A model generated the notes under the pieces. The model did no database searches and was not told where the DNA came from. It was given only the letters and a program-made list of their open reading frames with translations. From NCBI GenBank assembly GCA_905250025.1, contig CAJNOJ010000134.1, forward strand, positions 211,419 through 275,418: a stretch of 64,000 nt of DNA, in the 5' to 3' direction. Each line of letters begins with the position of its first letter. Positions within the stretch are counted from its first letter, which is position 1. The position numbers and the translations under genes were made by a program. This DNA is from Adineta ricciae. Its lineage: Eukaryota > Rotifera > Eurotatoria > Adinetida > Adinetidae. This document shows positions 3,570 to 61,197 of the stretch, piece after piece.

Positions 3570-4025
3570 TTTATCTTTATTCTCGTCGAGGAGTTTATGA
3601 AAAATTTGTCTCGATATCAGTCTTTTATATACAAAGAACAGTTTTCTTATCGCTGTACTTGAGATGAAGTATTTTCCTTCATAAAAAATCTTATTTTCGA
3701 ATGATTTACGCGTTTAAATATCACAAAATCGGACATTGTAAAAGATAAGAATGGCTAGTAAATCATAAAAAAGATTGATCAAAGTTTTATAACATTGTCC
3801 AAAGATCACCTTATGAAAATCTTGTTTATCGATCGTTTCTCAGCAAACATATCCATGAGAAAAGGCTTGTTTACAATCGAAATAACACGTAGAACGACGT
3901 ACAAAATATGTCGTTGGCTAAACGCGTTTTCGTCAAGGTCAAGAAGAAAAGAACGCATAACGAGTATCATATAAATGTAAACACAAGGCAAATTTTCCCA
4001 CACGACAATACCATTTTTTTGTACT

Positions 4026-4961
4026 ATGGAATCGATCGTTACCAATACACGGTTATTTAAATATGCGAAAAAAGAAACGACACCGTTTCGATTATTCGTT
4101 CAAAAAGTCAAACATGACTGGTCATTTGTCTTCTCTGGAATGTTGGCGTTTAATATTCTACTCGCACTTTTACCAATGGCGATCACATTGTTCGGTATTC
4201 TTGGTCTTGTTCTTGATAATCACCCAGATTTGAGGAATAATATCAAAAAGAAAATAATCGATTCGTTCCCTGTAGAGACGAGACATAGTATAAGACAAAT
4301 TATAAACATGGCTTTTCAAAAATTGCATCGTGATGCTGGATTTATCTTTGGTTTTGGTTTGTTATTTGCGATTCTTGGAAGTTCGAGATTATTCGTTGCG
4401 ATGGATCGATGTTTAACGATTATCTATCGAGTTGAAGAACGAAAATTTCTTCGCAAGTATCTTTTAGCAATCGCGATGTTGTTTCTTTTTCTGATTTTAA
4501 TCCCAACAATGGTCACTGCTTCACAATTACCCGCGTTACTTCTCGGTATGATTCCTAACTTCGGTGGACGCTTCGTCGTATATATTTTCGGTTTGTTAAC
4601 GAGTTTATTCTTATCATTTATACTCTTTGAAATCATTTACTTCATTATACCGAATAAGAAAATGACGATTAAAGAAACTTGGTGCGGTGCGTTGGCTGCT
4701 GCCATTGGTTTACAACTATTTATGATCGTTTTTCCGATCTACGTGAAAAATTTCATGGCGAGTTACACGGGTCAAATTGGATTTGTTGTGATTTTACTTA
4801 TATTTCTGTTCTATTCGGCTGTTATTTTTATATTAGGTGCCCAAATTAATGCTTTCTTTTTTGAACACATTCAACCATTGCCGGTGTCAATAGGAACGTT
4901 CGTTAGTGCTATTGCTGATGAATATCGCGAACGAGAAACACGAGAACCATTGAACGTTTGA
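4026..4961 (+). CDS. YihY/BrkB (UPF0761) family membrane protein, bacterial type
   Basis: A single uninterrupted 311-residue frame. Residues ~30-290 hold about six hydrophobic segments. The family signature FSGMLAFNILLALLPMAI corresponds to the bacterial YihY segment in which a conserved membrane helix follows a short amphipathic N-terminus. The following EKT-like middle and the C-terminal GQIGFVVILLIFLFYSAV...GAQINAFFFE pattern are also typical. The family is widespread in bacteria and has no settled function. There is no intron, while neighbouring animal genes have one every 100-200 bp, so a bacterial origin is inferred. It has a normal ATG, a TATA-like ATATAAAT about 55 bp upstream (near 3970) and the same AT-rich codon use as its neighbours, so it seems adapted to the host. 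Contamination is unlikely given animal-type genes on both sides. Confidence 0.87.
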   Translation: MESIVTNTRLFKYAKKETTPFRLFVQKVKHDWSFVFSGMLAFNILLALLPMAITLFGILGLVLDNHPDLRNNIKKKIIDSFPVETRHSIRQIINMAFQKLHRDAGFIFGFGLLFAILGSSRLFVAMDRCLTIIYRVEERKFLRKYLLAIAMLFLFLILIPTMVTASQLPALLLGMIPNFGGRFVVYIFGLLTSLFLSFILFEIIYFIIPNKKMTIKETWCGALAAAIGLQLFMIVFPIYVKNFMASYTGQIGFVVILLIFLFYSAVIFILGAQINAFFFEHIQPLPVSIGTFVSAIADEYRERETREPLNV

Positions 4962-5491
4962 TAAATCGAATCTTTCAATGATGTACTTTGAAATTTGTCA
5001 TAAAAAAACAAATATTAGTGGGTAGATTTAATAGAATAATTAATTTCATAAATATTTATTTACATTTCCTCCCCGACGGTTCAGTAAATAAACTTAATAA
5101 TGAAAATTTTTTTATTATACGCCTACTTCTTCGTCATCACTCGTTGTGGTCAATTCCAACTATTCTTTGCAGTCTTTTCGATCACTGAAATTAAAATATA
5201 GATTGATCAAACCGTGTTATTCAGTGCAATTCGGAATATTGACTCATGTTTCTATATCATCATGGAACATAGCAGATGTTTCTATTTGATTTTCTCTGAC
5301 ATTTTCAAGTATTTCTAATCATATCGAGAGATTTTGGTTTGGTCTCGAATGTTTTCTGTTCATGATATTCTTCTTTATTGAATTTGATGAAGATAAATTC
5401 GCAAATGAAGAACAAAAAAAAAGAGTTTTTATTCAATTTTTTGTTTCACAGAGTATCGACAAAATTGGATGTTTATTTCGTTGCTGCTTGA
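4962..5491. other. Intergenic, no gene seen
   Basis: Spacer between the YihY-like gene and the 3' end of the peptide precursor on the opposite strand. Short plus-strand frames here lie opposite the precursor's last exon or in AT-rich sequence and are not supported. Confidence 0.55.
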
Positions 5492-6655
5492 TTAATTTTG
5501 ATCATTGGAATGATGACGATGCATATGTCGTCCCGAATAACGAAGCATTCCTAATGGGCGGACACCACGTTTGAAGAAATCATTGCCTGACAACGAATCC
5601 AAACTCTAAACAACATACGAATGTTCAAAACATATTCGTTCAAATTGTCTTCTTCTACCTTTTTAAAAAAATCGTTTCCGTTCAATGAATCTAGGCTCTA
5701 AATGCAACAAAAGGTCAGCAATGAAAGAGACACATCTAACTGATGAACTACCTTTTTGAAGAAATCATTTCCACTTAATGAATCCAAGCTCTAGAAGAAC
5801 GCAAAATCATGAAAAAAAAGTCTTTTCATGCAAAGATTCTTACCTTCTTGAAGAAATCATTGCCAGACAAGGAATCCAAGCTCTAAAGATACGCGAAGGA
5901 AGAATTAATCGAAGTCGAACAACATAGAAACAAACCTTCTTGAAGAAATCTGATCCGGATAAGGAATCTAATGTTCGTTTCTAAGAATTCAAAGTCAATT
6001 TGGAAAGAATATATCGGATTAAGTATGAATAACTATTTACTTCTTCTTCACGTTTGAAAAAATCATTGCCAGATAACGAATCAAGACTCTAAACAAAGCA
6101 TTTTTTTGTGAAAAAAGAAAGAAATGAACTTGCAATGAATATTTACTTTTTTGAAGAAATCCGAGCCGGCGAGGGAATCGAGTGTTCGTTTCTAAAAGAT
6201 TTTCTTCGAAATCTTCTCAGAAAAGAAATTCTCGACTTACCTCATCTTCACGTTTGAAAAAATCATTGCCAGACAGACTGTCAAGACTCTAAAACATCCA
6301 AATTCCTTCGAAACCAATTCACTTTCCTAACTAACACTTACTTTTTTGAAAAAATCCGAGCCAGATAATGAATCAAGTGTACGCTTCTAAAAAAATCATC
6401 AATTAATCATTCTCAAACACCTTGAATTACAACATTCGATTGTTTTATGTCCGTCCAAGGACTCGTGCAAATAAATTTAACCTTTTAATATAACAGCAAT
6501 TATCCAAATGTGACTTTTCTTTATCACAGATTATTTTCGACATATCAGAGCAAATCTCGTGTTCATCATCAACAAACACTTACTTTTTCTTCGTCACCCA
6601 TGGTGCCTAATTGACAGAGAGCAGCAATAAGGAAAGCAATAAGAACTGTCGACAT
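5492..6655 (-). CDS. Multi-copy neuropeptide precursor, pedal peptide/orcokinin-like
   Basis: Ten exons in phase 0 on the minus strand: 6584-6655, 6342-6386, 6241-6288, 6147-6191, 6041-6088, 5936-5980, 5844-5882, 5752-5790, 5659-5697 and 5492-5605. Together they encode 177 residues. Exon 1 is a signal peptide (MSTVLIAFLIAALCQLG). Each other exon carries one peptide copy, (T/S)LDSL(S/A/N)G(S/N)DFF, flanked by KK or KR dibasic cleavage sites. The nine copies are TLDSLSGSDFF twice, TLDSLAGSDFF once, SLDSLSGNDFF five times and SLDSLNGNDFF once. The last exon adds a basic His-rich tail. Exon sizes of 39, 45 and 48 bp indicate growth by exon duplication. The xLDSLxGxxF core resembles orcokinin/pedal peptides and nematode NLP-14/15; that family assignment is inferred. 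No amidation glycine precedes the dibasic sites, so peptides would end in a free -FF. Confidence 0.85.
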
Positions 6656-6743
6656 TGTAGCAGTAGTCATAATATGATTTGGGTAGAAACAACCTGTTGG
6701 ATTTTTCTATGTGAAGCAATCTGGAATTGATGAACCCGTTCGA

Positions 6744-6751
6744 TTTATATA
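6744..6751 (-). promoter_or_regulatory. TATA box of the peptide precursor
   Basis: TATATAAA on the minus strand lies about 90 bp upstream of the precursor ATG at 6655. It is the only strong TATA match in this upstream region. Confidence 0.5.
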
Positions 6752-6783
6752 CCCTCTCATATTTTTTCAAGAGAAAAGGAATC

Positions 6784-6830
6784 ACTCTCTCTCCCACTCT
6801 CTCTTTCTCTCTCTCTCTCTCTTTTCTCTA
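6784..6830. repeat. (CT)n microsatellite
   Basis: Interrupted CT/TC run of about 45 bp directly upstream of the precursor promoter. Confidence 0.85.
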
Positions 6831-7298
6831 TTGTATGACACAATCATCGTCTTTCTCAGCACGACTAAAACTCCATTTTCGAAAAACATTCTTCTCAAGC
6901 TCAAGGATTAATAAGCGAAGCACATCAATAAAGGTGATGATAATCTCCAGACATTTTCCAGTAAATGGAATTTGGAAAGATGGAATTGACCATTATTTAT
7001 CTTTTGGATTCTTTTGCGTCGTTCTATTTGTCGATCGTTTTGCACCGATCGCATCAATTATTACTTAACGGAGAAGCAAAACGAGAGAAGAAATACGAGA
7101 CGAACATCTACAATTATCAATTTGAAAACACCTACATTCATTTCCTTTCGGATATGAATAGGAATATTAATGTTATCTAATGGATACTTTATTCCTATAA
7201 AACAACGAACTATATTCTTACGCCAGCGATTCAATAATCAGGGGAAATAGAGAAGAGAAGATCCGCACATCGAAATGAAACAAAGGTCAATATAACGA
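6831..7298. other. Intergenic, no gene seen
   Basis: Spacer between the precursor promoter and the 3' end of the GPCR gene. The two overlapping open frames in it are AT-rich and show no recognisable domain. Confidence 0.5.
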
Positions 7299-8366
7299 TC
7301 ATGTTTGTTGGTTATATTTCATCGTGATTTGATTGGTTTGACTATGATAAGCAGCTGAAATCGGATCTGGCGGAATGATTCTAACTTCACTAATTATTGC
7401 CAAATTTGGTCGTTGAATGTTCAATAGTAATCGTTTAACTTCTTGTCGAAAGATTTTTCCAGTGAGAGTGTAGAGATAGAAAGCAGAACAACAATTGATG
7501 TAAAGAATGAGAACAGAAACTTGAAAGAAGAAGTTTTCTTTGGTTAATTCCAACGAATCTTTCAATTGATTGAATGTTAGTGTTGAATATGCCTTTGATA
7601 TTCCCGATGGTGTTACAAGAATAACGAAGAAAAATACTTGAACTAAAAGCATCATAATCATCTGATGATCTTTTTTCTTCAATAAACGATGTTGTTGACG
7701 AGAGGCCTGAAGATTCGCGGGTAATGGACGGACTTGTTGCCGAATTTTTTGAACATTTCTTATTGTCACATAACCAAAGCTCAACATGAACATTGGAGGA
7801 ATTAAAGAGAATAGAATAAGAAATAAAACATCATTGTATGTTCGACAGACTTGATTTGGACAATAACAATTCAATGGAAATTGATTCGGTACAGCTACAT
7901 AACAATAGAATGTTTGTCCATAAAATACACAAGCAAATAACGTTGTATACATCACCATACGTCGAGCATTGTGAATACGACTGAAAGAGCGTATGTTTGG
8001 ATTTGTACTTGATGATGCCCATCGATCGACACTAGCGTAGACAAGAAAACAAGCACTCAAAGACAGTGACATGTATGTGATATAGAAACGGATTTGACAC
8101 ACCACGGTGCTCCATGCGGTTGGATCAAGATTATAACCAGAAAGTAATCTTGTTAAAAGGCCAATCCATAAACAAAGGATGTTTGCAAGTGTTGAAGAAA
8201 GAAAATAGAACGCACACGAATTCGTTCGAAGGGATTGACGTGTCAATATAAATACATTTAAGATATTCCCAATTGTTCCGAAAATTAATAATGGAATTGG
8301 TATCGATCGATTTAGATACATAGCAACATGAAGAAGGGTGGCAATAGTTTCATTTTTTGCATCCAT
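7299..8366 (-). CDS. Rhodopsin-family (class A) GPCR, orphan
   Basis: Intronless seven-transmembrane protein of 355 residues. The first in-frame ATG is at 8366; the open frame extends upstream only through a TTG codon. TM1 carries FGTIGNILNVFILTRQ with the class A GN motif. TM3 ends in VYASVDRW in place of DRY. Two extracellular cysteines (CQIRFY before TM3 and CYCPNQVC in loop 2) can form the usual disulfide. After TM6 and TM7 the tail begins KIFRQEVKRLLL, an amphipathic helix 8. An N-glycosylation site (NETI) lies near the N-terminus. Layout and motifs match the large bdelloid families of peptide-receptor-like GPCRs. The ligand is unknown. Confidence 0.85.
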   Translation of the reverse strand: MDAKNETIATLLHVAMYLNRSIPIPLLIFGTIGNILNVFILTRQSLRTNSCAFYFLSSTLANILCLWIGLLTRLLSGYNLDPTAWSTVVCQIRFYITYMSLSLSACFLVYASVDRWASSSTNPNIRSFSRIHNARRMVMYTTLFACVFYGQTFYCYVAVPNQFPLNCYCPNQVCRTYNDVLFLILFSLIPPMFMLSFGYVTIRNVQKIRQQVRPLPANLQASRQQHRLLKKKDHQMIMMLLVQVFFFVILVTPSGISKAYSTLTFNQLKDSLELTKENFFFQVSVLILYINCCSAFYLYTLTGKIFRQEVKRLLLNIQRPNLAIISEVRIIPPDPISAAYHSQTNQITMKYNQQT

Positions 8367-8441
8367 ACGCAAATGAAAATAACGAGAAATGAGTTGAAGA
8401 AAATAATGAGATGAAAGAAAACTTCCTGAACTTGTCTTCAA

Positions 8442-9303
8442 AACCTTTCTTTCGTAGGTGATGCGAAAAATAATTAATCACATAGACGTGAAGAATCGCG
8501 ATGCCAACATCATTGAAACTTTCTTAAATTTAACCACAGTGAATATCTTTTTCTCTGCATTTTACTTTAACTTTTCAGTAACGATATCAATCCATAACAA
8601 TCAACAACATAGTAAAAAGGTTTATACATGTAAATTTTAGGAGAATCCATTTGATATCAGCAGGTGTTATAGAATCATTCTTTTTAGAGAACTCAGCTCG
8701 GATATTCCGGTAGGTAAAAAGGATAATTGCACGACATTCTGATGTTCACAGAGTACATTGAAACAGTTGTAAACCCAAACTGAATAAACTGCAATTTTTG
8801 TTTTGATTTTCTCATAGTTCGATCAATCATCTTGAGAATGTATATCTGCATTCAATTTTGTTGCTGTATAATGATATTAAGATAAAGATTTAATGGAGCC
8901 GAAAGATTTGTTGTTTCTGGTGAGGAGAAAGAAAAAGAATAACAATACGAAGTGAACAAAAATAGCATGGAAATATGTGTTTTAAGAAATCCGAATTACT
9001 TAGACCACGTTTTGTATTCAATCATGTGAGCTTATTGGCATCCACACGGCTACAAGTTCTCCACGGGTTCTACCCACATTCGTTTTGTTGAAATAGAACA
9101 CCGATGTATGTTCTTAAAAATAGAACTACAAATATTTCTATATAAGTCATTGAGGGTGTTTATGTGCATTCGATGTTGTTTCTATATAATGATGTTTAAT
9201 GGAGGCGAACGATTTGTTGTTTTTGGTGTTGGAACGAGAAAACAGATAAATACGAAGACGAATCAATAAAAGCATATGAAATCTGGTTTTGATTCATTTG
9301 AAA
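8442..9303. repeat. Non-coding spacer with a diverged direct repeat
   Basis: No gene is seen. Two diverged copies of a roughly 110-120 bp block lie at about 8836-8957 and 9155-9264. Both share a TGCATTC...TTGTT...TATAATGAT stretch, TTTAATGGAG.CGAA.GATTTGTTGTTT and a closing AATACGAAG.GAA. The offset is about 310-320 bp, so this may be an old tandem duplication or two copies of a small dispersed repeat. Confidence 0.55.
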
Positions 9304-10673: not shown

Positions 10674-11684
10674 CTATTTATTAATGAATCGATAGGTAGG
10701 TTTGATTTCTGTCAGATGAATCTCAGAATTTGCATTGTCGTTTTGAATGATATCAGTGACTTCAAATACGCTATCGAACATAATTAAAATCTCTTTTTCA
10801 TGTGGAAATTCGGAAATATATTGAACATCTAATGCGGTATAAGAATGACGAATTCGAAATATCATCATCACAACATGTTGATCGGCGGTGTTACATTTAC
10901 GAATATATTCTTCAGCAATTGTTCGTTCTTGCGTCGTGCAAAGAAATGTTCGATTCGAAATTCTACTTCCTTTTTTAAATACGTTAAGGTCGTCGAGAGC
11001 ATTGAGACAAACACTTCGATAACAATAATCTTTGTACGAATATGTTTCGTGTAATTCGCGATTGAAATAGATTGTTTGTACGAACTCTAATAGAGGATTA
11101 TCTTCATTTCTTGACAAAAGATAATGATTGACACGTTTGTAAAAGTCTGTTTCGGCTGTATACGCTTGGATTAAGTGAATGCAATCTTTTTCTTCGACAG
11201 CTTGACGAAGAAAACGTCGAATAACGTCAAGATTGATCATAGGACGTAGTTGTGTGCATATTCGATCTATATGCAAAGCGCCATATTTTAATCGATTACC
11301 TTGAAGATAATCAGCTGGAATATTCTTTAGATTCACGTCTGGTCGAACCCAAATCGATAATTCTTCTTCGATAGAAATTCTTCCTCCAAAGCGATGCGTT
11401 GAAAAATCTCGATGAAACAAATGTTTGTTTTCATTGCTGATCTCTTCGTATGGAGTTTTATCATATTTATTCAAAATACGCCGTGTGAAACCACGTTGTA
11501 GTAATAAAACAACGACACCGACTGAATTATGAAAACATGCAACATGTAATGGTGTACTGTCATTGGGTTCCATTCGATCGAGTTCTTCCAATGTATGTTT
11601 TCGTAGTAATCGTTCGACCGAATCGAAGTCATTTGCTCTACAAGCGTAATAGAACGGACTTGGTTTCGATGCCGGCTCGCTCAT
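10674..11684 (-). CDS. Ankyrin-repeat protein with ADP-ribosyltransferase (ART)-like domain
   Basis: Intronless, 336 residues. Residues ~8-85 form two ankyrin repeats (PFYYACRANDFDSVERLL, then DSTPLHVACFHNSVGVVVLLLQRG). The C-terminal ~200 residues look like the arginine-specific mono-ADP-ribosyltransferase fold: a YRSV segment for the R of the R-S-E triad, then GSRISNRTFLCTTQERTIAEEYI (in the place of the STS-x-A segment), then SEFPHEKEILIM with two acidic residues in ExE-like spacing. The second-strand serine is replaced by Cys-Thr-Thr, so activity is uncertain. There is no signal peptide, hence probably cytosolic. TATA-like TATATA lies near 11762-11770 upstream. The ART assignment is from motif reading only. 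Confidence 0.7.
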   Translation of the reverse strand: MSEPASKPSPFYYACRANDFDSVERLLRKHTLEELDRMEPNDSTPLHVACFHNSVGVVVLLLQRGFTRRILNKYDKTPYEEISNENKHLFHRDFSTHRFGGRISIEEELSIWVRPDVNLKNIPADYLQGNRLKYGALHIDRICTQLRPMINLDVIRRFLRQAVEEKDCIHLIQAYTAETDFYKRVNHYLLSRNEDNPLLEFVQTIYFNRELHETYSYKDYCYRSVCLNALDDLNVFKKGSRISNRTFLCTTQERTIAEEYIRKCNTADQHVVMMIFRIRHSYTALDVQYISEFPHEKEILIMFDSVFEVTDIIQNDNANSEIHLTEIKPTYRFINK

Positions 11685-12409
11685 TGAGTTTCATCGAAAT
11701 GAGAATCGATGAAATTTCTGTCACTTTTAGGAGCCTTACCTTATGTCAATACGAAACTCATTTTATATACGATTCGATAAGAGAAAGAAAAACAAGTGTT
11801 TTGAAGAACAGAGAGAATGAAAAATGTTTTCGACGTAAAATTCACAAGTTTGAAGTAACGGAACAGAAAAAAATGGTCATTATCAACTGAAAAATCATTG
11901 TTCCTATAAATCAGGTTTTATTTGTTTAACCGTGAATTTAAAAATATTTATCACACATCACATGAATAGTATATGGTGTGCAAAATCATAGATTGTCCCT
12001 CTTAAGTAAATGTACACTTGTCATCTCTATTCGATCCATTAGGTTTTCATTGACAATCGTTTCAATTTATTCAAAGGTTAATACTCTTCACTTCATTGTA
12101 ATTCCACACATAAACATGATAGTGTGAAAAGAAAAGAGTGAAGAGAAATTTAGACTTTTTTTAAAGCTTAAAATCACGATAAATGCTTTGGATTTAGTTC
12201 AATTAGGAAGATACATCGTCTATATAAATAACAAATAATCATTCTTTCTATCAGAATGACAAGATGTTACAGTGGAATTCATGCAAAGGATCAATAAAAT
12301 ATCAGCAATATGCAAATAGTAGGCATTAGTTATGAATCTAACGATGAGAAAGAGGAAGAGAAATGAACGCAACGAAACTCATTGACAAAATATTGTTTCA
12401 TTTCTCTTT
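11685..12409. other. Divergent intergenic region, no gene seen
   Basis: Separates the divergently transcribed ANK-ART gene and the TM2 gene, so it must contain both promoters. It is AT-rich, with TATATAAA near 12221 on the plus strand about 190 bp before the TM2 gene. Confidence 0.5.
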
Positions 12410-17419: not shown

Positions 17420-17821
17420 TGTTTTTTATTTTTTGTATAATAAATCAATATTGCCAATTTTTTCAATGGATGGTCTTTTTATAAAGGGTTGTATTTAAAT
17501 AATCAGTATATTATTTTGTTTTGAAAAACTGTTATATATACTACTTATCTGAGCAATTTAAATAGGTTTTTATCAATCATTAGTGCGTTATAAGCATCAC
17601 TGCCAATTCACGGAAATAACCCCTAGAGTTTAGGAATTACTTACCAACAAATCGATAGAGGGCGGCTTTATATCAAGTTTCAGAGATAGTATGGTGGACA
17701 TAAAACTATGAGACAACCGGAACCACACCGTCATCCTCACTGACACCCACGCCCTCAAGATTCTGATATTCATTATGTTGTAAATAGAAGAGAAAATAAC
17801 GAGTCTATATTATCAGGACAC
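17420..17821. other. Intergenic, no gene seen
   Basis: Spacer between two same-strand glycosidase genes, with AATAAA near 17440 for the GH125 transcript. No further gene is seen. Confidence 0.5.
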
Positions 17822-19771
17822 ATGCAAGATAAGGAGTTGAATACTGCTTTTCATTTGATTCAACATATCATGCAGTATATGATTATTTTTACTTTTCTTG
17901 TGTTCGTACACTCTTTACACTCGGCTGCAGTTCCATCATCAACTGTCGATAATGTTCCAAATCAATTTCTTCCATTCTATTTACAAGAAGTTCATCTGAT
18001 CAATTCGATTCACTCGCCAAGTCTTGCTGGTCAACAATTGAATCAGGCCTATTTAGATCTTTTACCCGTAGATCGCTTGTTGTATACCTATTATGTCAAT
18101 GCAAATCTAAGTGTCGAAGGTATTGAACCACTCGGTGGATGGGAATCACCAACGAGTGATATTCGTGGTGTATTTCTCGCTTTTTATCTACAAGCGTCTG
18201 CCAAAGCATACCTTGCATATAATAATACTCAGCAGTTGTCCAAAGCACAATATTTGGTTGAGCAACTCTATCGTGTACAAAAGCTTTTGAATGAATCCGG
18301 ATTTCTCGCAGCATGGCCATCGGAACATCTACGTAAATTAGAACGTTTAGAGAAAGTTTGGGCACCGATTTATTGTTACGAAAAACTGCTTCGTGGTCTT
18401 TCAGATATGTATACCTTAACTGGATTAACACTAGCTGGCCAAATGGTACACGATATGTTGAATTATTTATATACATGGATGATTCATTGTATGAACACTT
18501 ATCCAACATCACATTGGCATGCTATGATATTCAGTACGTTAGATTATGAATATGGTGGTATTAGTGAGTTTCTATATGAACAATATGGATTAACAAGTGA
18601 TCAACGGTTCTTTTGGATGGCACAACAATTCGATGATGGACAATTTCTTGGAGCTCTGGCATTGAACATGGATTTTCTGACAGGTGTACATGCAAATTCA
18701 CATGTTCCACCTGTGATTGGTAGTGGTCGACGATACTCCATTACAGGTGAACAACAGTATCGATCTATCATAGAAAATTTCTATTCATTAGTATGGAATA
18801 ATCATACGTATTCGACGGGTGGTTCGAATGGAGGGAATGGCTCTGTCGGATTCGATCAACAAGAGCATTATAGTGATCCAAATCTTCTTTCTCAAACACT
18901 CTGGAATAACAATCAAGAATTTTGTGTTCAGTATAATATGTTACGCTTGATACGGATGTTAATTCAATGGACAGGAAAAGTTCAATACGCAAATTCGTAC
19001 GAACGGATCTATGTGAATAGTATTTGGGGTACACAAAATCCAGAAGAACCCGGTCATATGTTGTATAGTTACCCATTGGGTGAAGGTGTAAGTAAACCAA
19101 CATCGGTCGGAGGTGGAGATGTTGGATATGGGACACAGTTCGATAGTTTCTGGTGTTGTTATACAACAGCTATTGATCAATGGACAAAAATGAGTGATTC
19201 GATTTATTTTCGTCAAAACTCATCGATTTATGTGAATCTATTTGTTTCGTCTGAAGTAAATTGGACAGATAAGAACTTCGTTCTCCGACAATTAACTGCT
19301 TTTCCAAGAGAATCAACAACGAACTTCACAATAAACACTTCATTCAATGAGGTTCACATGACTATCAACTTACGTGTACCATCGTGGATTGTTCTCAACG
19401 AATCTTGGATTGAAATCAATCATCTTCGTCAAAAACTCGATCTTATTCCTTCAACTTACATTCAACTTCCGAAACTCAACTGGAAACCGAACGATGAAAT
19501 CGTTTACAAAATGGCGATGAACATTCATTTCGAATCAATTAATGACAATCCACAATTAGTTTCAATCCTATATGGACCAATTGTTCTCGGTGGATTAACT
19601 AAGCAAGCAAAAGTTTTATTTAACGATGTGAATCTTATCCGAAGAATTCAGCGATCATCTTCTGAAATCTTACTGTTTGAAACAACATCGGTGGATGGAA
19701 CAAGAATTCAGTTTTTACCTTTGTATGAAATTGTCAATCAAACGTACACAGTTTATTTTCCCATTCAATGA
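17822..19771 (+). CDS. Glycoside hydrolase family 127 (DUF1680), beta-L-arabinofuranosidase type
   Basis: Intronless frame of 649 residues; the true start may be an internal ATG at 17870, which puts the signal sequence MQYMIIFTFLVFVHSLHS at the N-terminus. The (alpha/alpha)6 domain shows GWESPTSDIRG, FLTGVHANSHVPPVIGSGRRY and YSTGGSNGG. The zinc/nucleophile set known from HypBA1 (Glu, Cys, Cys, Cys) is present as E366 and C368 in QEFCVQYN and C445-C446 in FWCCYTT, so the enzyme is probably active. The C-terminal ~170 residues form the beta-sandwich modules. Family members release L-arabinofuranose from plant glycans. It is on the same strand as GH125, 400 bp downstream. The family is bacterial, fungal and plant, so horizontal transfer is likely. 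Confidence 0.9.
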   Translation: MQDKELNTAFHLIQHIMQYMIIFTFLVFVHSLHSAAVPSSTVDNVPNQFLPFYLQEVHLINSIHSPSLAGQQLNQAYLDLLPVDRLLYTYYVNANLSVEGIEPLGGWESPTSDIRGVFLAFYLQASAKAYLAYNNTQQLSKAQYLVEQLYRVQKLLNESGFLAAWPSEHLRKLERLEKVWAPIYCYEKLLRGLSDMYTLTGLTLAGQMVHDMLNYLYTWMIHCMNTYPTSHWHAMIFSTLDYEYGGISEFLYEQYGLTSDQRFFWMAQQFDDGQFLGALALNMDFLTGVHANSHVPPVIGSGRRYSITGEQQYRSIIENFYSLVWNNHTYSTGGSNGGNGSVGFDQQEHYSDPNLLSQTLWNNNQEFCVQYNMLRLIRMLIQWTGKVQYANSYERIYVNSIWGTQNPEEPGHMLYSYPLGEGVSKPTSVGGGDVGYGTQFDSFWCCYTTAIDQWTKMSDSIYFRQNSSIYVNLFVSSEVNWTDKNFVLRQLTAFPRESTTNFTINTSFNEVHMTINLRVPSWIVLNESWIEINHLRQKLDLIPSTYIQLPKLNWKPNDEIVYKMAMNIHFESINDNPQLVSILYGPIVLGGLTKQAKVLFNDVNLIRRIQRSSSEILLFETTSVDGTRIQFLPLYEIVNQTYTVYFPIQ

Positions 19772-28179: not shown

Positions 28180-28402
28180 CAGTGTGAAGCTAGCACGAAG
28201 CAGCTAGCACGAAGAAACTGTGTGTAAGCTAAAAACTTTTTTCCAAAGTTTGTTCGGTTCATAAAACCTAGTCCATTCGATTCAGAATTTAATTCTGCAT
28301 CGAATAGTGGTATTTTTATTCACCGGACAAACTTCGGAAAAACGTTTTTAGCTTACACACAGTTTCTTCGTGCTCGCTCCTTCGTGCTAGCTTCACACTG
28401 AT
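28178..28402. mobile_element. MITE, 225 bp, long terminal inverted repeats
   Basis: Begins ATCAGTGTGAAGCTAGCACG and ends with its inverse. The inverted repeats extend about 60-90 bp (…AGAAACTGTGTGTAAGCT… against AGCTTACACACAGTTTCT). The centre contains CATTCGATTCAGAATTTAATTCTGCATCGAATAG, itself a palindrome. It is a non-coding member of the same family as 24058 and 41938. No clear target duplication is seen for this copy. Confidence 0.8.
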
Positions 28403-29784
28403 GTTGAACGTTTCAGTCGAAGACTCTCACCATGTCGTTGATGACGTTCTTTCCACCAATCAATACAGTGGAACAAAAGTTTACCGGATAACAGTACGAG
28501 TATTCGTAGGATTGCGTTCAAACCACCACATATGGCGATAAGAAGAAGGAATGATGCTAGCACATTACGGCGTTGTACATTGGTATATGAACAAGATTTA
28601 GGTGCACATTCATAGTAAAATTGGTCGAAATATGAATTGTTACTGATTGCTGCTTCGGAGAACAGTTCAAGCAATAAATCTTCCGTTTTGACATCACCGA
28701 AGCGACTGGGAATTGATGCATTGAGAGGTTTGATGTTTGGCGAACTTGGCGATTGAATGGCGAGCGAATAGGTTTCTTGAATATCTTTCAGATAGGTACT
28801 ATCATACCACCAACCTATCTTCGACTTAAGAAATCCAGTCAGAGGAACACAGCCTACTGTGATCACTCGGAATAAGTAAGTCAGTGGAAAGGTACCGAAA
28901 TAGGATGCATTTGTGAATAACAGAGGTAGAAGTAAACAGTTCCTTAAAACATCGGTACATGAACAGACGGCGCCGCCTGAACCTCCTGTAGCTGAGAAAG
29001 TTGAATATTGAGGATGTGCAGCAAATCGAATCCTTAGTTGATCATAAATGTCGAGATTCATCTCGAAGATAATATTTGCTCCGTTAAAAAATTGACCAGC
29101 AATAAATGCAATATCGATCCAATCAATTGTTCGTACAAAATTGTCACGAGTTGCTTCGATAAATGAATCCAGTATTGATTGAGTCTTTTGATGAAAATCT
29201 GATCGAGAAAGAACACGATCATTGATGAATTGAGTAGTAGTAAAAACATGTTGTGCATCAGCAATGTTAGTTTGAACCATTGAACAAAAAATAGATAAAA
29301 ATTGAAAATAACTAAAGCCCATTACTCGAAAATCAAAAACACCTTCACGTTTATATGATATGAATTTAGCAGTGGTTGGATCAAATAATCTCACATACGA
29401 TATCCATTCCGATGAGACTAAATCACTGAAACAGACTTGATGTAGAACGAATGTTGCATTCATGAAAGATTTATATGGAACAGATATTTGTGAGCAGGGA
29501 CATTGTAATGCTGTTGAATAATCACTATATAACTGCTCATAAGTAGACAGAGATGGATTTGATATTATTATTAACTGATTTTGTTTAGTAAGAAATATAT
29601 AAAACCCAGCACCAAGTGAAGAGATAATAAGCAGAAAAATAAAGATTTTGGTTAACAGTCGTTCGCGAAAGAGTTCTGTTGCAGTATGTGGTCTCGTGCT
29701 TTCGAATACATTCAGTGAAGTGACTAATGCTCTAATGTGTCTTGGTATGTGTTGAATATAATTGTATAGAACGTGAACTAAGCT
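28393..29784 (-). CDS. Two-TM cysteine-rich extracellular-loop protein, downstream paralogue
   Basis: One open frame of 463 codons from a splice-acceptor-like TTTAG at 29785-29789 to the stop at 28393-28395. TM1 (KIFIFLLIISSLGAGFYIFL) is near the N-terminus and TM2 (LASFLLLIAICGGLNAILRILVLL) near the C-terminus, with a ~320-residue loop. The loop has CPCSQISVPYKSF, C-C pairs (CSCTDVLRNC) and CAPKSCSYTN, all shared with the upstream paralogue. No in-frame ATG precedes TM1; the first is at 29463. The TGA stop lies inside the MITE terminus. Topology resembles DEG/ENaC or P2X channels, but no sequence hallmark of those is seen. It may be a real gene with a hidden first exon, or a pseudogene. Confidence 0.6.
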   Translation of the reverse strand, partial: SLVHVLYNYIQHIPRHIRALVTSLNVFESTRPHTATELFRERLLTKIFIFLLIISSLGAGFYIFLTKQNQLIIISNPSLSTYEQLYSDYSTALQCPCSQISVPYKSFMNATFVLHQVCFSDLVSSEWISYVRLFDPTTAKFISYKREGVFDFRVMGFSYFQFLSIFCSMVQTNIADAQHVFTTTQFINDRVLSRSDFHQKTQSILDSFIEATRDNFVRTIDWIDIAFIAGQFFNGANIIFEMNLDIYDQLRIRFAAHPQYSTFSATGGSGGAVCSCTDVLRNCLLLPLLFTNASYFGTFPLTYLFRVITVGCVPLTGFLKSKIGWWYDSTYLKDIQETYSLAIQSPSSPNIKPLNASIPSRFGDVKTEDLLLELFSEAAISNNSYFDQFYYECAPKSCSYTNVQRRNVLASFLLLIAICGGLNAILRILVLLSGKLLFHCIDWWKERHQRHGESLRLKRSTSV

Positions 29785-31073
29785 CTAAATCATTTATATG
29801 TTGTGAATGAATTGAAATATAACTTACCTGGACGTTGTGGTGTTGCTTCACTTTTTGCAATGTTGAGATTCGGTGCGACGCGATTCCTTCGATATAATAT
29901 AATCATTACAATCAAAAGAGCAAATGATCTCAATCCGAACGACAGTCCACCAACAATACCAATGATCGTTTTAACGATAAAAGCAGCATGAAAACGACGT
30001 GTATATGAATATGAACAATATTGAGGGTTACATTGAGAATAGTATACGCTAAATTTCACATCACTTTGTATCTCTTCAATCATCAGTTTATTGAAGATGT
30101 CTTCTATCGTTGATCTTGGAGAAAAACGTTTTAGTGAACTGTTTGATAGTGGTTGAATATATATAGGTAATGATTGATGTAAAAGAGAAATACATGTTTG
30201 ATTATAATAACATTCGAGTGTTGATGCGAGTGTCGCTTCGATTATCAAGCAGTCCATGATCATTCCTGGTATAATTATCAAATGACCTTGACTATCATTG
30301 AAGATAGCTGGACGTGGACAACCTTCGATATTTGTGCAGGAACAATTCCCAAACGTTCGAGGAGCCATTCGAATATCAGAGCGCGAGAAAAATTTTAGGT
30401 AATAGTTCGTTTGTAGACCGGACACAATCTGATTTCCACTTGCCATACGACGAATAGCGAATAAAGTTCGAATTATTGTTGATTGAGACAAATCGATTTG
30501 ATTTTGAAATTCTGCTTGTACTTGAGCTCGAAGCGTTTCTTCGGCAATGGCTGTCGGACTGAGAATATTTGATGTTTGAAAATTTGCAACGGCACTTTCC
30601 CAACTTGCTCGACTTGCATTACATAGTCCTCCGACAGTTTGCCAAAAGAAACTTAGTGTAACACGAAAATCATCGATCGATTGCACTGAGATATCTTCAT
30701 TCATGAATGTCATATCAAACCATGTTTGTTCAATAAATCGACTTGAACAAACAGGATGAAATCGAACTTGAGTTGTCACAAAAGCTTGGTAACTAATCGA
30801 GTATTTTGAACAGGGACATTGTATTGTACTTGGATATTGTTTTGCTAATTGTATAAATCGCGTGTATGATGGTTGAGATTCAGTTGTTTCAATTGTTCGC
30901 ATTATAAAGGCAGTTATTATTGTAATTATGATTAGAGAAGTGATGAACAAGCAGATATAGACACGAGTTGCAATTAGTTCTTTCCGAAGAGTTTGCTCTG
31001 TGCTATCAGATTTCTTGAAAAGATTTACTCGAAGAAACTTTTGCCAAAGTTGATTTGCAACGTTCAAGATCAT
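29732..31073 (-). CDS. Two-TM cysteine-rich extracellular-loop protein, upstream paralogue
   Basis: Exon 1 is 29828-31073 and exon 2 is 29732-29784, joined by a short 43-bp intron, giving 432 residues. A cytosolic N-terminus with basic residues is followed by TM1 (VYICLFITSLIIITIITAFIM). A loop of ~300 residues begins CPCSKYSISYQAFVTTQ and contains FHPVCSSRFIEQTW, SWESAVANFQTSN, FGNCSCTNIEGC and CNPQYCSYSYTRR, all typical of this family. TM2 (IVKTIIGIVGGLSFGLRSFALLIVMIIL) precedes a short tail. The family is not one I can name. It seems to be a tandem pair and is probably expanded in bdelloids. A plasma-membrane receptor or channel is a guess from topology only. Confidence 0.75.
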
Positions 31074-31645
31074 CTTAAAGTAGATTGGGCGATTAGTTTA
31101 TGTATAAGAGTGTAATCAGGAAAATGATGAATGAAACTAACAGTTAGAGAATGAACTGCAATGATGATTAGAGAAGAAAATAAAAGTGTTGAATTCATTA
31201 GGAATAATAATGGACTTTTGTCTTTCATTAAATATTTTCTGTAGAATTTAATAATAAACAGAATTTTGATAACACATGTTGTTGTTTTTTTATTCAGGCA
31301 AATATGTCGTCATGGAACATATCATTCATCTTTTTTTAACTGACATGATCTGAACACGGTAATGAGATTTTGACATTCAGTCCGGCGAGAATCAGGTACA
31401 TTGTGAATCTCTATGAAGATATAACTCTGTGTTCTACGCAAACATCCTTATTTGTCGTTCTGAGAATCATCATAGCACATACATACTTATTATAAATTTT
31501 TATTTCAAATATGTTTTCAAACAAACAAGGAAAAAGACACATTTCCTAATTTCTAATAACACCTTTTTGTATTTCTTTTTCCAAATGTTCCTTAGTAAAA
31601 CAATCTTTTACCAACTCGACTTGTTTTAATAATTGTTTCAAACGA
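31074..31645. other. Intergenic, no gene seen
   Basis: AT-rich spacer holding the upstream region of the two-TM gene and the 3' end of the HIT-like gene. Nothing else is seen. Confidence 0.5.
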
Positions 31646-54977: not shown

Positions 54978-56474
<1,497 letters not shown>

Positions 56475-57519
56475 ATGAATTCAACCACTGTCACTCTGTC
56501 GATTTATCTTGCCAATGCCCAAACGCAGATCGTTCGATCCTTGCTTACACCTGTCTACATCATCGGCAACTTAACAAACCTAGCAAATATTCTCATATTC
56601 TTACAACCCACTCTTCGCTTGCACGTTTGTTCCTATTATTTCATTGGCGCATCGCTTGCACATCTTCTGTACCTCAACATGGGGTGTTCAACACGAGTCA
56701 TTTGGGCATGGACTGGTTATGATCTTTCTCTCAAATCTCTAATATTCTGTCAAACTCGAGTGTATTTTGTAATATTTAGTCTGAGTGCATCTCGATATCT
56801 TCTTTGTCTGATCTCGATTGATCGATGGATGATCACATCAAGAAACGCTCTCACTCGTCAACTGAGTACGTCCAAAACTGCTCGACGATTGATCATTAGA
56901 GGTATTGTCTTTCTACTTCTCATCATCATACATGCACCTTTCGCATATGTTTTGACCGACACGATACCTTGTGGAGCATCACCACAATCGAACCTCTTCA
57001 TACTCTATACAATCTTCAACGTAGCTCTCTCACTCATTCCTCTCACAACTCTGGTCATATTCAGTCTTCTCATACTTTACAATATCGAGCAGCTTCGAAG
57101 TCAACAAATTGCTCCTGTAGAACAGACATCAGTAATAAATAATGTTTCACATGCTGGGCGCCGATACAAAAAGAAGGATATGCAGTTCATTCGACTGGCA
57201 CTTATTCAAGTGGCTGCATATCTCATTTTCAACACTCTTCATGCCTATAATACGATTTACGCAGTTGCCACACAATATCGAATAAAGACAGCTGATCAAC
57301 GAGCGATAGAAGGATTTCTGAATGGAATAGGTCTCAATCTCCATTACACATACACTGGAGTAAGCTTCCTAATCAGATCGTACCGGTTAATTTGATACTT
57401 TTGCTTTTGTTTAGATCACATTCTTCTTATACACGATGGCATCTGTCTCGTTTCGGAAGATTTGTATCGATATTTTGCGAAGACCGTTCAAACATCCGTT
57501 AGCTTTGAGACACGAATAA
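56475..57519 (+). CDS. Class A GPCR, tandem copy 1
   Basis: Exons 56475-57359 (885 nt) and 57415-57519, with a 55-bp intron inside TM7, give 329 residues. TM1 has IIGNLTNLANILIF. TM2-loop carries HLLYLNMGCSTRVIWAW. TM3 starts at CQTRVYF and ends in ISIDRWMI in place of DRY. TM5 is FNVALSLIPLTTLVIFSLLIL. A basic third loop ends GRRYKKKDMQFIRLALIQ, and TM7 is LNLHYTYTGITFFLYT. The tail starts SFRKICIDILRRPF. The N-terminus has glycosylation sites (NST). The ligand is unknown. It is nearly identical to copy 2 from codon ~52 to the end of the shared part of exon 2. Confidence 0.88.
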
Positions 57520-58097
57520 TAAAATGAATAGAATTTAATATTCACTTTTCTTCCATTGAGATGGCTCAGGACTATGTTCCACTCATTCTTCATTGTTTCT
57601 GTTGAACCATAAAAATCTGTTGAGTAGAAATTATGTTTCTCCATGATTTTCTGCCAAGTCATGTCTGCATATTTCTATATGTTACTCTTTGTTCTGTGTT
57701 ATAAGATGACGTTTACAGCCAACAAACACAAATGGAATGGTTCATATTAATAGTATCGTTAACGTATGATAGAATACCTCAGCTTTATTTTTAACCCGTT
57801 CATCGATATTTTGAGCGTACCTGAATTCTTTTTATGAGTATGGCCTTTCAAGAATACGATGAATAAGATTTTCCAGTTTTCTATCAAAAGAATTTTTACA
57901 GTAAACTGCTTCTAAGAACAATGAAAAGCTATACAAATCCGAGACATTCTAACGACGTGTTTTATTCCGGAACAATTATCCTTTTTCTTCAAGGTTTTGA
58001 CAAGATTATTTGCTATTTTTACATTAACATCTTATCGCAGATATATAAAGAAGTATTTATACACATGATGCGCTTCTATTTTCATTTTCCATCAAAT
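57520..58097. other. Spacer between GPCR copies 1 and 2
   Basis: No gene is seen. The open frame of copy 2 extends upstream into this spacer, but the homologous start is the ATG at 58098. Confidence 0.5.
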
Positions 58098-59136
58098 ATG
58101 AATTCAACTACCGTCACTCTGTCGATTTATCTTGCCAATGTCCAAACACAGATCATTCGATCCTTGCTTACACCTGTCTACATCATCGGCAACTTAACAA
58201 ACTTGGCAAATATTCTCGTATTCTCTCAAGCCACTCTTCGCTCGCACGTTTGTTCCTATTATTTCATTGGCGCATCGCTTGCACATCTTCTGTACCTCAA
58301 CATGGGGTGTTCAACACGAGTCATTTGGGCATGGACTGGTTATGATCTTTCTCTCAAATCTCTAATATTCTGTCAAACTCGAGTGTATTTTGTAATATTT
58401 AGTCTGAGTGCATCTCGATATCTTCTTTGTCTGATCTCGATTGATCGATGGATGATCACATCAAGAAACGCTCTCACTCGTCAACTGAGTACGTCCAAAA
58501 CTGCTCGACGATTGATCATTAGAGGTATTGTCTTTCTACTTCTCATCATCATACATGCACCTTTCGCATATGTTTTGACCGACACGATACCTTGTGGAGC
58601 ATCACCACAATCGAACCTCTTCATACTCTATACAATCTTCAACGTAGCTCTCTCACTCATTCCTCTCACAACTCTGGTCATATTCAGTCTTCTCATACTT
58701 TACAATATCGAGCAGCTTCGAAGTCAACAAATTGCTCCTGTAGAACAGACATCAGTAATAAATAATGTTTCACATGCTGGGCGCCGATACAAAAAGAAGG
58801 ATATGCAGTTCATTCGACTGGCACTTATTCAAGTGGCTGCATATCTCATTTTCAACACTCTTCATGCCTATAATACGATTTACGCAGTTGCCACACAATA
58901 TCGAATAAAGACAGCTGATCAACGAGCGATAGAAGGATTTCTGAATGGAATTGGTCTCAATCTCCATTACACATACACTGGAGTAAGCTTCCTAATCAGA
59001 TCATACCGGTTAATTTGATACTTTTGCTTTTGTTTAGATCACATTCTTCTTATACACGATGGCATCTGTCTCGTTTCGGAAGATTTGTATCGATATTTTG
59101 CGAAATCCAGTCAAACACATTTTAACCTGCATATAG
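58098..59136 (+). CDS. Class A GPCR, tandem copy 2
   Basis: Exons 58098-58982 (again 885 nt) and 59038-59136 give 327 residues, with the TM7 intron at the same place. By eye, about 12 differences from copy 1 lie in the first ~155 coding bases, then only about two differences through exon 1, the intron and the first ~60 bases of exon 2. The C-terminal tails then differ (RNPVKHILTCI here). The 5' part (NILVFSQATLRSH) is closer to copy 3. This mosaic suggests gene conversion or a very recent partial duplication. Confidence 0.88.
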
Positions 59137-60143
59137 CGACAGTGAAATGATCAAAGAATTTTGTAAAACTTTTACATCTTCTCGGAAATTTCTGCTTTAA
59201 AAAATAAATTCAATAAATAGACTTCGTTATGCTTATTATACTTTTGAGTCAATTTTACTTCTCGTGATCAATCGCGATGGTACGATCACATCACGAAACA
59301 AGTGTTTGAAATTCCTTACAACTTACCACCTGGATAAACGAAGTTCACTCACATTTCTTCATTCAGATATATATATATATATAAATGCCGTTATAGAAGC
59401 AAATCATAAATTTTCTACGACGAAAATAGATTGATGGAAGTGAAGCGTATCACGTTTCATTCTCTCATCAGTGGAAGAAAAAGTAATCCGAAAAGTATTT
59501 ATCTTTTTCTTTATTGATTACGAATGGTGAATGTACAAATGTCATCCTTGTCTATCATGTCAGAGACATTTCTTACCTTAGGGAAAATATATCACGGAAT
59601 TTATGACGAAGTTCGACGAGAAACGAAACAAATAATATGTAAAAGCCATAAAACTAATGTTTTCTTATTGCTGTAGAATTGGGAATACCGTTTAATATTC
59701 CGCCTCTACCAGATCTGTCTGACTGATTTCATATCCTCACTTTGTGCGTTACCTAAAAAGAAGTCAATGATCAGGTTCTCTATGTATAATAACGTAGACA
59801 TACCGTAAGACGACGTATTTTGGTGTAATTTCTATTTTTGTATCTTGAACAGCTTAAATTCTTACCATGTCTTACAAGGGCATTACCAGTCAAAGAAATA
59901 ATAACGTTCTTAACCAGAGTGAAACCCAACACATCTTCCATCAAAAACTTGTTTTCAATCTAAGCCACGAGACAGAGGCAACCTATAAATGTGTTAATAA
60001 CTTATTTTATTTCAAATGGAACATTTCCTTGTTCCTGTCATTATTTTAATGAGTTTTCTTTTCTTTTAACAATATTCTTATTTTATAGCCCCCTACGTAG
60101 GTAAACATAGTTACACTTGTTTTTCCTTAGCATCAACACAAAT
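59137..60143. other. About 1 kb spacer, no gene seen
   Basis: AATAAATAG near 59210 ends copy 2. A (TA)n run lies at about 59370-59382. A short frame at 59867-60049 has no coding support. Confidence 0.45.
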
Positions 60144-61197
60144 ATGAATTCAACTACTGTCACTCTGTCAGTTTACCTTGCCAATGTTCAAACACAGATC
60201 GTTCGATCACTCCTCACATCTATCTACATCATCGGTAACTTAACAAACCTAGCAAATATTCTCGTATTCTCTCAAGCCAATCTTCGCTCGCACGTTTGTT
60301 CCTATTATTTCATTAGTCTATCACTTGCACACCTTTTGTATCTCAACATGGGATGTTCAACACGAGTCATTTGGGCATGGACTGACTATGATCTTTCTCT
60401 CAAATCCTTAGCTTTCTGTAAGGCTCGAATTTATTTTGTTTTGGTAGGCTTAACCACTGCTCGTTATCTTCTTTGTCTGATCTCGATTGATCGATGGATA
60501 ATCACGTCAAGACATGCACTCACTCGACGACTAAGTTCGCGAAAAGTTGCTCGGCGACTAATTATCGGGGGGATCATCTGTTTACTTTTCATCATCATAC
60601 ATACATCTTTTGCTTACACCATAATCAGAAATACAACATGTGCAGTACCAACCGAATCGGATTTTTTTATACCCACTACTATTTTTAATGTCGCTTTATC
60701 TCTTGTTCCTCTCATAGTCCTTATTATATTTAGTCTCCTCATGCTTTACAACATTCACCATGTTGAAACACAACAAATTACTCCCGCAGAACGATCTATG
60801 GTGACAAATGTTGCCTCATTTCATGGACGGCGATACAAAAAGAAAGACATTCAGTTTATCCGACTTACACTTCTTCAAGTGACTGCGTATTTCGTCTTCA
60901 ATACACTTCTCGCGTATAACACGATCTATACCGTTGTCACACAATATCATATAAAAACAATGGATCGACAAGCTTTTGATGAATTCTTATATGGGTTAGG
61001 TTTGAATCTTCATTACACATACACAGGAGTAAAGTTTCTAGCGAGAATAATACGATTCATTGGTATCTATTACTATTTAGGTCACCTTCTTCTTGTACAC
61101 AATAGCGTCGAGGTCGTTTCGAAAGATTTGTATTGAATTCTTACAACGATTGTACAGAAAACTGTTCAATGCAACGTACTTACGGGCAAATCATTGA
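60144..61197 (+). CDS. Class A GPCR, tandem copy 3
   Basis: Exons 60144-61028 (885 nt) and 61081-61197 with a 52-bp intron at the same TM7 site give 333 residues. It is clearly a paralogue of copies 1 and 2 but more diverged: CKARIYFVLVGLTTARYLL in TM3, ISIDRWII, IICLLFIIIHTSFAYTII in TM4 and HGRRYKKKDIQFIRLTLLQ in loop 3. The tail is longer (RLYRKLFNATYLRANH). The equal length of exon 1 in all three copies shows no indels since duplication. Confidence 0.88.

Follow-up and report, generated by a model that had tools for sequence, protein, structure and literature searches.

The 64-kb window, the whole stretch of DNA analysed here, contains a peptide gene on its minus strand at 6670-5492, which spans 1179 bp and has a coding sequence of 549 nt including the stop codon. 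Peptide copies and exon borders were located by a motif and splice-border search, and the ten coding exons, when spliced, give a predicted precursor of 182 residues. The motif LDSLxGxDFF occurs nine times in the window, always on the minus strand and within this gene (zero times on the plus strand), and was absent from all 50 mononucleotide shuffles of the window. The exons are listed below from first to last.

6584-6670, minus strand: exon 1, signal-like, MTTATMSTVLIAFLIAALCQLGTMGDEEK; hydrophobic stretch, exon ending in DEEK, donor GTAAGT
6342-6386, minus strand: mini-exon 2, 45 bp, KR TLDSLSGSDFF KK (T-type); counterpart in the second gene described below
6241-6288, minus strand: mini-exon 3, 48 bp, SLDSLSGNDFF KR EDE (S-type with acidic spacer); counterpart in the second gene
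6147-6191, minus strand: mini-exon 4, 45 bp, KR TLDSLAGSDFF KK; counterpart in the second gene
6041-6088, minus strand: mini-exon 5, 48 bp, SLDSLSGNDFF KR EEE; positional counterpart in the second gene
5936-5980, minus strand: mini-exon 6, 45 bp, KR TLDSLSGSDFF KK; donor GTTTGT, identical in the second gene
5844-5882, minus strand: mini-exon 7, 39 bp, SLDSLSGNDFF KK; groups with copy H6 of the second gene, support 36
5752-5790, minus strand: mini-exon 8, 39 bp, SLDSLSGNDFF KK; S exon without a clear counterpart in the second gene
5659-5697, minus strand: mini-exon 9, 39 bp, SLDSLNGNDFF KK; groups with copy H7 of the second gene, support 59
5492-5605, minus strand: exon 10, 114 bp with the stop codon, SLDSLSGNDFF KR and the tail GVRPLGMLRYSGRHMHRHHSNDQN; the tail has 24 residues, several of them His

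All nine introns of the window gene are of the GT...AG type and in phase 0; intron 1 is 197 bp long, and introns 2-9 measure 49-60 bp. Retention of a single intron would introduce an in-frame stop in six of nine cases and a frameshift in the rest. Several donors are weak (GTTTGT, GTAGTT and GTAGAA). A TATA-like box starts 81 bases before the first in-frame ATG, at 6670; a second in-frame ATG lies at 6655, the stop codon occupies 5494-5492, and an AATAAA begins 14 bases past it. A previous sequence-only reading had placed phase-0 exons between 5492 and 6655, and the stop codon and an ATG fit these ends, although the strand had gone unstated. That reading had also assigned each of nine copies to a separate exon of 39, 45 or 48 bp, which holds for eight of them, whereas the ninth shares the last exon with the tail.

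As that reading had described, the copies are arranged as T, S-acidic, T, S-acidic, T, S, S, S, S. Its claim that they are flanked by KK or KR was borne out for all nine. The mature peptides predicted from the window gene are nine 11-mers, three TLDSL(S/A)GSDFF and six SLDSL(S/N)GNDFF, so that every copy ends in GNDFF or GSDFF; calculated [M+H]+ values are 1201.537 for SLDSLSGNDFF, 1188.542 for TLDSLSGSDFF, 1172.547 for TLDSLAGSDFF and 1228.548 for SLDSLNGNDFF. None of the nine has a Gly before KK or KR, in agreement with the free Phe-Phe end proposed earlier, and free C-termini without amidation are expected because no Gly precedes any post-peptide cut site.

A relative of the window gene was found by DNA search on contig C165 of the same assembly, where the region 154000-163000 was examined. 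This second gene carries eight peptide copies, arranged as T, S-acidic, T, S-acidic, T, S, S, S; all are bounded by dibasic sites, one ends in Phe-Leu, and they include TLDTVSGSDFF, which is isobaric with TLDSLSGSDFF. Its exons are in phase 0 and 39, 45 and 48 bp long, with seven of the eight copies on a mini-exon of their own, and its terminal exon carries a different His-containing tail. All eight introns are of the GT...AG type; retention of intron 3 (54 bp) is possible, because it is free of in-frame stops and its length preserves the frame. In both genes, all internal exons are a multiple of three in length and in phase 0, a TATA-like box lies upstream and an AATAAA downstream, and the precursor has a hydrophobic N-terminal stretch, the two signal-like exons being only loosely alike. 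A 72-residue protein query gave nine matches in the assembly up to E 10, all at the two loci (contigs C134 and C165). A 28-residue query returned nothing at E 0.001 and missed the known gene too, indicating that short queries are blind, and searches of the genome with FCAP-repeat and pedal-peptide/orcokinin-repeat queries, which gave no candidates, also missed the window gene and are hence uninformative.

The two genes lie in a collinear block, with the same order and orientation on both contigs. First comes an upstream stretch of 251 bases that matches at 73%, then a BrkB-type gene with 58% protein identity between the blocks, then the peptide gene and finally a GPCR gene, whose protein aligns in two pieces at 59 and 58%. 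In the window, the BrkB/YihY-type gene (PF03631, E 2.8e-41) lies at 3981-4961 on the plus strand; it encodes a bacterial-type membrane protein and is possibly an old horizontal acquisition. The gene that adjoins the peptide gene in both blocks, at 7299-8477 on the minus strand of the window, encodes a class A GPCR. A ligand-receptor linkage of the two was considered, but their proximity is probably incidental given the very large size of the GPCR family, for which the genome yielded 1375 first-look candidates, 114 scored, and at least 115 matches. Similarity of the adjoining GPCR to solved receptors is weak, with four sequences up to E 0.001 and a best value of 4.4e-05.

Several other open frames in the window are of separate interest. 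Three tandem GPCR-like frames lie at 56457-61136 on the plus strand; the middle one matches 7tm_1 (E 1.8e-08), and the first two look, by eye, nearly the same along the greater part of their length. At 17744-19771 on the plus strand, a frame of 675 aa resembles GH127 beta-L-arabinofuranosidases (PF07944, E 4e-70) and is possibly a horizontal acquisition. Ankyrin repeats are fused to an NAD:arginine ADP-ribosyltransferase domain (PF01129, E 3.4e-07) at 10674-11690 on the minus strand, and two neighbouring long frames of 463 and 435 aa, similar by eye, lie at 28393-31097 on the same strand. A bdelloid rotifer as the source would fit the 130-Mb assembly, the diverged pair of collinear blocks, the BrkB, GH127 and ankyrin-ADP-ribosyltransferase genes, and the published Rotaria precursors discussed below. 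TGTGGG, the telomere repeat of bdelloids, also occurs in the genome, but its control was the same repeat in another register, and it is uninformative.

Between the two peptide genes, 80 of 88 peptide residues are identical, compared with a protein identity of 58-59% for the neighbouring genes. With W and H denoting copies in the window gene and in the second gene, respectively, dN over 115 codons in eight exon pairs was 0.045 when W6 was paired with H6 and 0.053 when W7 was paired with H6, and dS was 1.52 or 1.66. The calculation did not include the signal exon, the tail or the one unpaired window S exon, and each pair was trimmed to the length of its shorter exon. The resulting dN/dS, 0.030 or 0.032 over the 115 codons and 0.039 or 0.046 for the 88 peptide codons, is approximate since dS is near saturation. 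Signal exon and tail align poorly between the genes, and the peptides are better conserved than the remaining precursor. When the cores of introns 2-9 were compared with those of introns 2-8 of the second gene, eight of 56 comparisons gave z > 2, the highest being 3.4 and 3.3. The match at 3.4 joins the last introns of both genes, a positional pair, and the first five positional pairs gave z of 0.2, -1.7, 1.6, -1.3 and -0.1. The introns are thus mostly unalike, and the last one may keep a trace. A blastn search returned one 672-column match at 68% that spans exons and introns of both genes. Because the peptide exons are strongly conserved between the genes and the intron cores mostly unalike, the mini-exons are very probably coding and spliced. 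The signal-like exon, the dibasic sites, the repeated peptides and the purifying selection on peptide codons uphold the earlier identification of a neuropeptide precursor, and on this sequence evidence the locus is in all likelihood a prepro-neuropeptide gene.

Five and six Pfam families were matched by the two precursors up to E 0.1. One of these, a phage receptor-binding neck domain, scored 32 bits in the window precursor against a cut-off of 27, but this was a sum over repeats of which no stretch passed alone, and the candidate was rejected; the remaining Pfam families on both precursors were all below their curated cut-offs. NCBIfam gave no family for the window precursor, and Rfam gave no match at gathering score in 4900-7300.

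Evidence on the family of these peptides came from a comparison with 20 published peptides, comprising 11 candidates and nine controls, two of which were other Bombyx orcokinin-gene peptides; all shuffle p values are uncorrected for multiple tests. The best matches were Bombyx orcokinin B, NLDSLGGANF, and Locusta SGLDSLSGATFGEQ, with scores of 30-34 and p of 0.0002-0.0012. The comparison covered two of three Hermissenda FCAPs, which scored 24 (p 0.0018-0.0054), and other orcokinin-gene peptides of Locusta and Tribolium scored 20-23 (p 0.004-0.011). Matches to Aplysia pedal peptide were weak (scores 19-20, p 0.025-0.035), and a sea-cucumber pedal-type peptide gave p of 0.22 and 0.045. Peptides of the orcokinin A type (p 0.31-0.82) and starfish SMP (p 0.53-0.57) were at chance against the rotifer peptides, as were all nine controls (p 0.28 or more). 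The membership in the pedal peptide/orcokinin superfamily that the sequence-only reading had suggested is therefore only partly sustained: there is a good match to peptides of the orcokinin B type, but pedal peptide matches weakly, classical orcokinin is at chance, and rotifer peptides that are apparently the same have been published under the name FCAP.

Two family names need to be weighed, both of them compatible with a neuropeptide gene. The first would make the rotifer peptides true members of the pedal peptide/orcokinin family, closest to orcokinin B, and not FCAPs of the molluscan type. It is favored by the scores of the Bombyx and Locusta peptides, which exceed that of FCAP (30-34 vs 24). 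The insect peptides, from orcokinin B or orcokinin genes (Bombyx, PMC11817372; Locusta, PMC4237046), have the LDSL(S/G)G core in common with the rotifer ones and, after it, a Phe in the corresponding position, and the Bombyx peptide is printed without a final Gly, as here, although it comes from an arthropod and ends in a single Phe instead of Phe-Phe. Interpretation is confounded by the length of the peptides, since 10-15 residues are too short to settle homology. Moreover, crayfish orcokinin, Bombyx orcokinin A and starfish SMP were at chance, and the C-terminal SGFx described for pedal peptides of sea urchin and Aplysia (PMC5860471) is found in none of the nine window copies. Aplysia pedal peptide PLDSVYGTHGMSGFA (PMC5656890) resembles the rotifer peptides in its multicopy precursor and LDS start and differs in its SGFx end; classical orcokinin NFDEIDRSGFGFN (PMC5656890) likewise comes from a multicopy precursor, but its peptide matches at chance level. 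A survey of precursors (PMC6425005) also grouped those of rotifers with FCAP. On balance, the orcokinin B assignment is credible, at somewhat less than an even chance.

The second name, rotifer FCAP orthologue, follows that 2019 survey. In favor of this assignment, the FCAP core LDSLGG is present as LDSLSG, so that an LDSL(S/G)G core is common to the rotifer peptides and two Hermissenda FCAPs, and the survey's FCAP-related peptides of Rotaria have 11 residues in eight or nine copies. However, molluscan FCAPs (Hermissenda GLDSLGGFQVHGGW and relatives, PMC8735849) are longer, and their C-terminal half of the FQVHGGW type is not found in the rotifer peptides, which have NDFF or SDFF instead; the alignment is limited to the six-residue core. 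Molluscan FCAP precursors are reported to hold 6-28 copies (PMC6425005). We consider FCAP orthology a serious possibility that falls a little below even odds.

Whichever name applies, peptides of this family have probably been published before. FCAP-related precursors are reported by De Oliveira et al. (2019; PMC6425005) for three species of Rotaria, with a fixed peptide length of 11; the precursor of R. tardigrada has nine copies, and those of R. sordida and R. socialis have eight each. The peptides described here have the same length, and the two genes hold nine and eight copies; from length and copy number, they probably belong to the same family. The main text of the survey, whose sequences are in its Supplementary Note S4, contains neither the word "exon" nor the strings LDS, DSL or DFF. 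The survey found very few rotifer precursors, and rotifers are described as poorly sampled for neuropeptides (PMC8557429).

The main new point therefore seems to be the mini-exon layout and not the peptide family. One peptide per mini-exon at such a scale was not found in the literature searched, mainly its openly readable part, with the original FCAP and Lottia papers outside it. The accessible text on insect orcokinin genes (PMC11817372, PMC4237046) does not describe such a layout. A parallel is found in beetle periviscerokinin genes (Veenstra 2019, PMC6585902), where peptide exons were likewise duplicated between introns of the same phase with the frame kept; those genes are reported to have one to four such exons in phase 1, whereas the mini-exons of the window gene number eight, are in phase 0 and, at 39-48 bp, have room for little beyond the peptide and its cleavage site. 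Sea-cucumber neuropeptide genes are reported with one to five coding exons (PMC6586643), and in SALMFamide genes the signal exon is followed by a phase-0 intron (PMC9793003).

The exon order common to both genes implies that the T,S units and the S exon bearing N are older than the block duplication and that one S exon has been gained or lost after it, leaving nine copies in one gene and eight in the other. In an exon tree, S-type exons were separated from T-type exons with support 92. The pairs W2-H2 (99), W3-H3 (66), W8-H7 (59) and W6-H6 (36) were recovered; W4 grouped with H8 (73) and not with H4, and W1, W5, H1 and H5 were without clear pairs. Within-gene comparisons of introns, with intron 1 left out, gave no clear trace of duplication, the highest z being 2.8 in 28 comparisons for the window gene and 2.3 in 21 for the second gene. 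The growth by two-exon and one-exon duplications that had been proposed from the sequence is thus favored by the exon order in both genes and by the T/S split, although support is low at several nodes and no clear trace is left in the introns. Exon duplication fits these data, is not proven by them, and gene conversion between exons is possible.

The predicted path from gene to peptide can be set out as follows. A transcript would join the ten phase-0 exons into the precursor, the signal peptide would route it into the secretory pathway, and prohormone convertases would cut at KK or KR, the basic residues then being trimmed. Nine free-acid peptides of 11 residues would be released, presumably by nerve cells, and would probably act as neuromodulators through a G-protein-coupled receptor. 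In other animals, Aplysia FCAP together with CP-2 is described as potentiating synaptic transmission or raising excitability in the feeding circuit via cAMP (PMC8222659), pedal peptide has foot muscle and cilia as its targets, and orcokinin acts on the hindgut (PMC5656890, PMC4772807); according to a 2018 review, no receptor was known in any phylum for pedal peptide/orcokinin peptides (PMC5818035). That the peptides modulate muscle, cilia or feeding in the rotifer is a guess.

Each mini-exon would be a frame-neutral cassette of peptide and cleavage site, and copy number could therefore change by exon duplication or loss with the frame intact. S exons with an acidic spacer (EDE and EEE in the window gene, NDE and EE in the second) are followed by a T exon beginning with KR in four of four cases, and S exons ending in KK are followed directly by another S exon. 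Because the acidic-spacer S exon and the next T exon are always paired, and the KR of the T exon is the next cut site, the two would act as a unit. Gain or skipping of KK-ended S exons or of T+S units would leave processing unharmed, which would not be so for a T exon alone.

These properties raise the possibility that alternative splicing of the mini-exons, with some skipped in some cells, produces variable peptide mixtures. The internal exons of both genes would permit this by their length and phase, and some donors are weak. There is also a parallel with the micro-exon genes of schistosomes, which likewise pair a signal peptide with short exons (3-81 bp) and encode a secreted product (PMC10526429). 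The likeness is an analogy of layout only: introns of the schistosome genes reach 5 kb, and dibasic-processed repeat peptides are not among the features described for them in the available text. Peptides within a type are nearly identical, however, so skipping would mostly alter dose, and skipping of a T exon alone would fuse the acidic spacer to the next peptide. We regard such splicing as unlikely. A decayed or chance repeat array without a protein product, which the shortness of the tandem units might suggest, is highly improbable given a dN/dS of about 0.03 between the genes, splice borders at every intron of both, and the absence of the motif from the shuffled sequences.

A more far-reaching reading, less likely than not, is that a bdelloid signalling-peptide gene has turned into an almost pure array of exon cassettes, each a phase-0 exon of 39-48 bp with one peptide and its cleavage site. 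Whole exons would come and go in evolution, changing the number of copies and the T:S ratio, and skipping may add further tuning. Neuropeptide genes elsewhere are described with few coding exons, as in sea cucumber, or few duplicated peptide exons, as in beetles. In the present genes, almost all peptides have a frame-neutral exon to themselves, such that copy number and peptide ratio would be changeable by gain, loss or skipping of whole exons, and the nine- and eight-copy genes within one genome form a record of copy-number change. The window gene also supplies a gene model from genomic DNA for this signalling family, in animals whose neuropeptides are described as poorly sampled (PMC8557429), and its LDSL(S/G)G core bears on a possible kinship of FCAP and orcokinin B.
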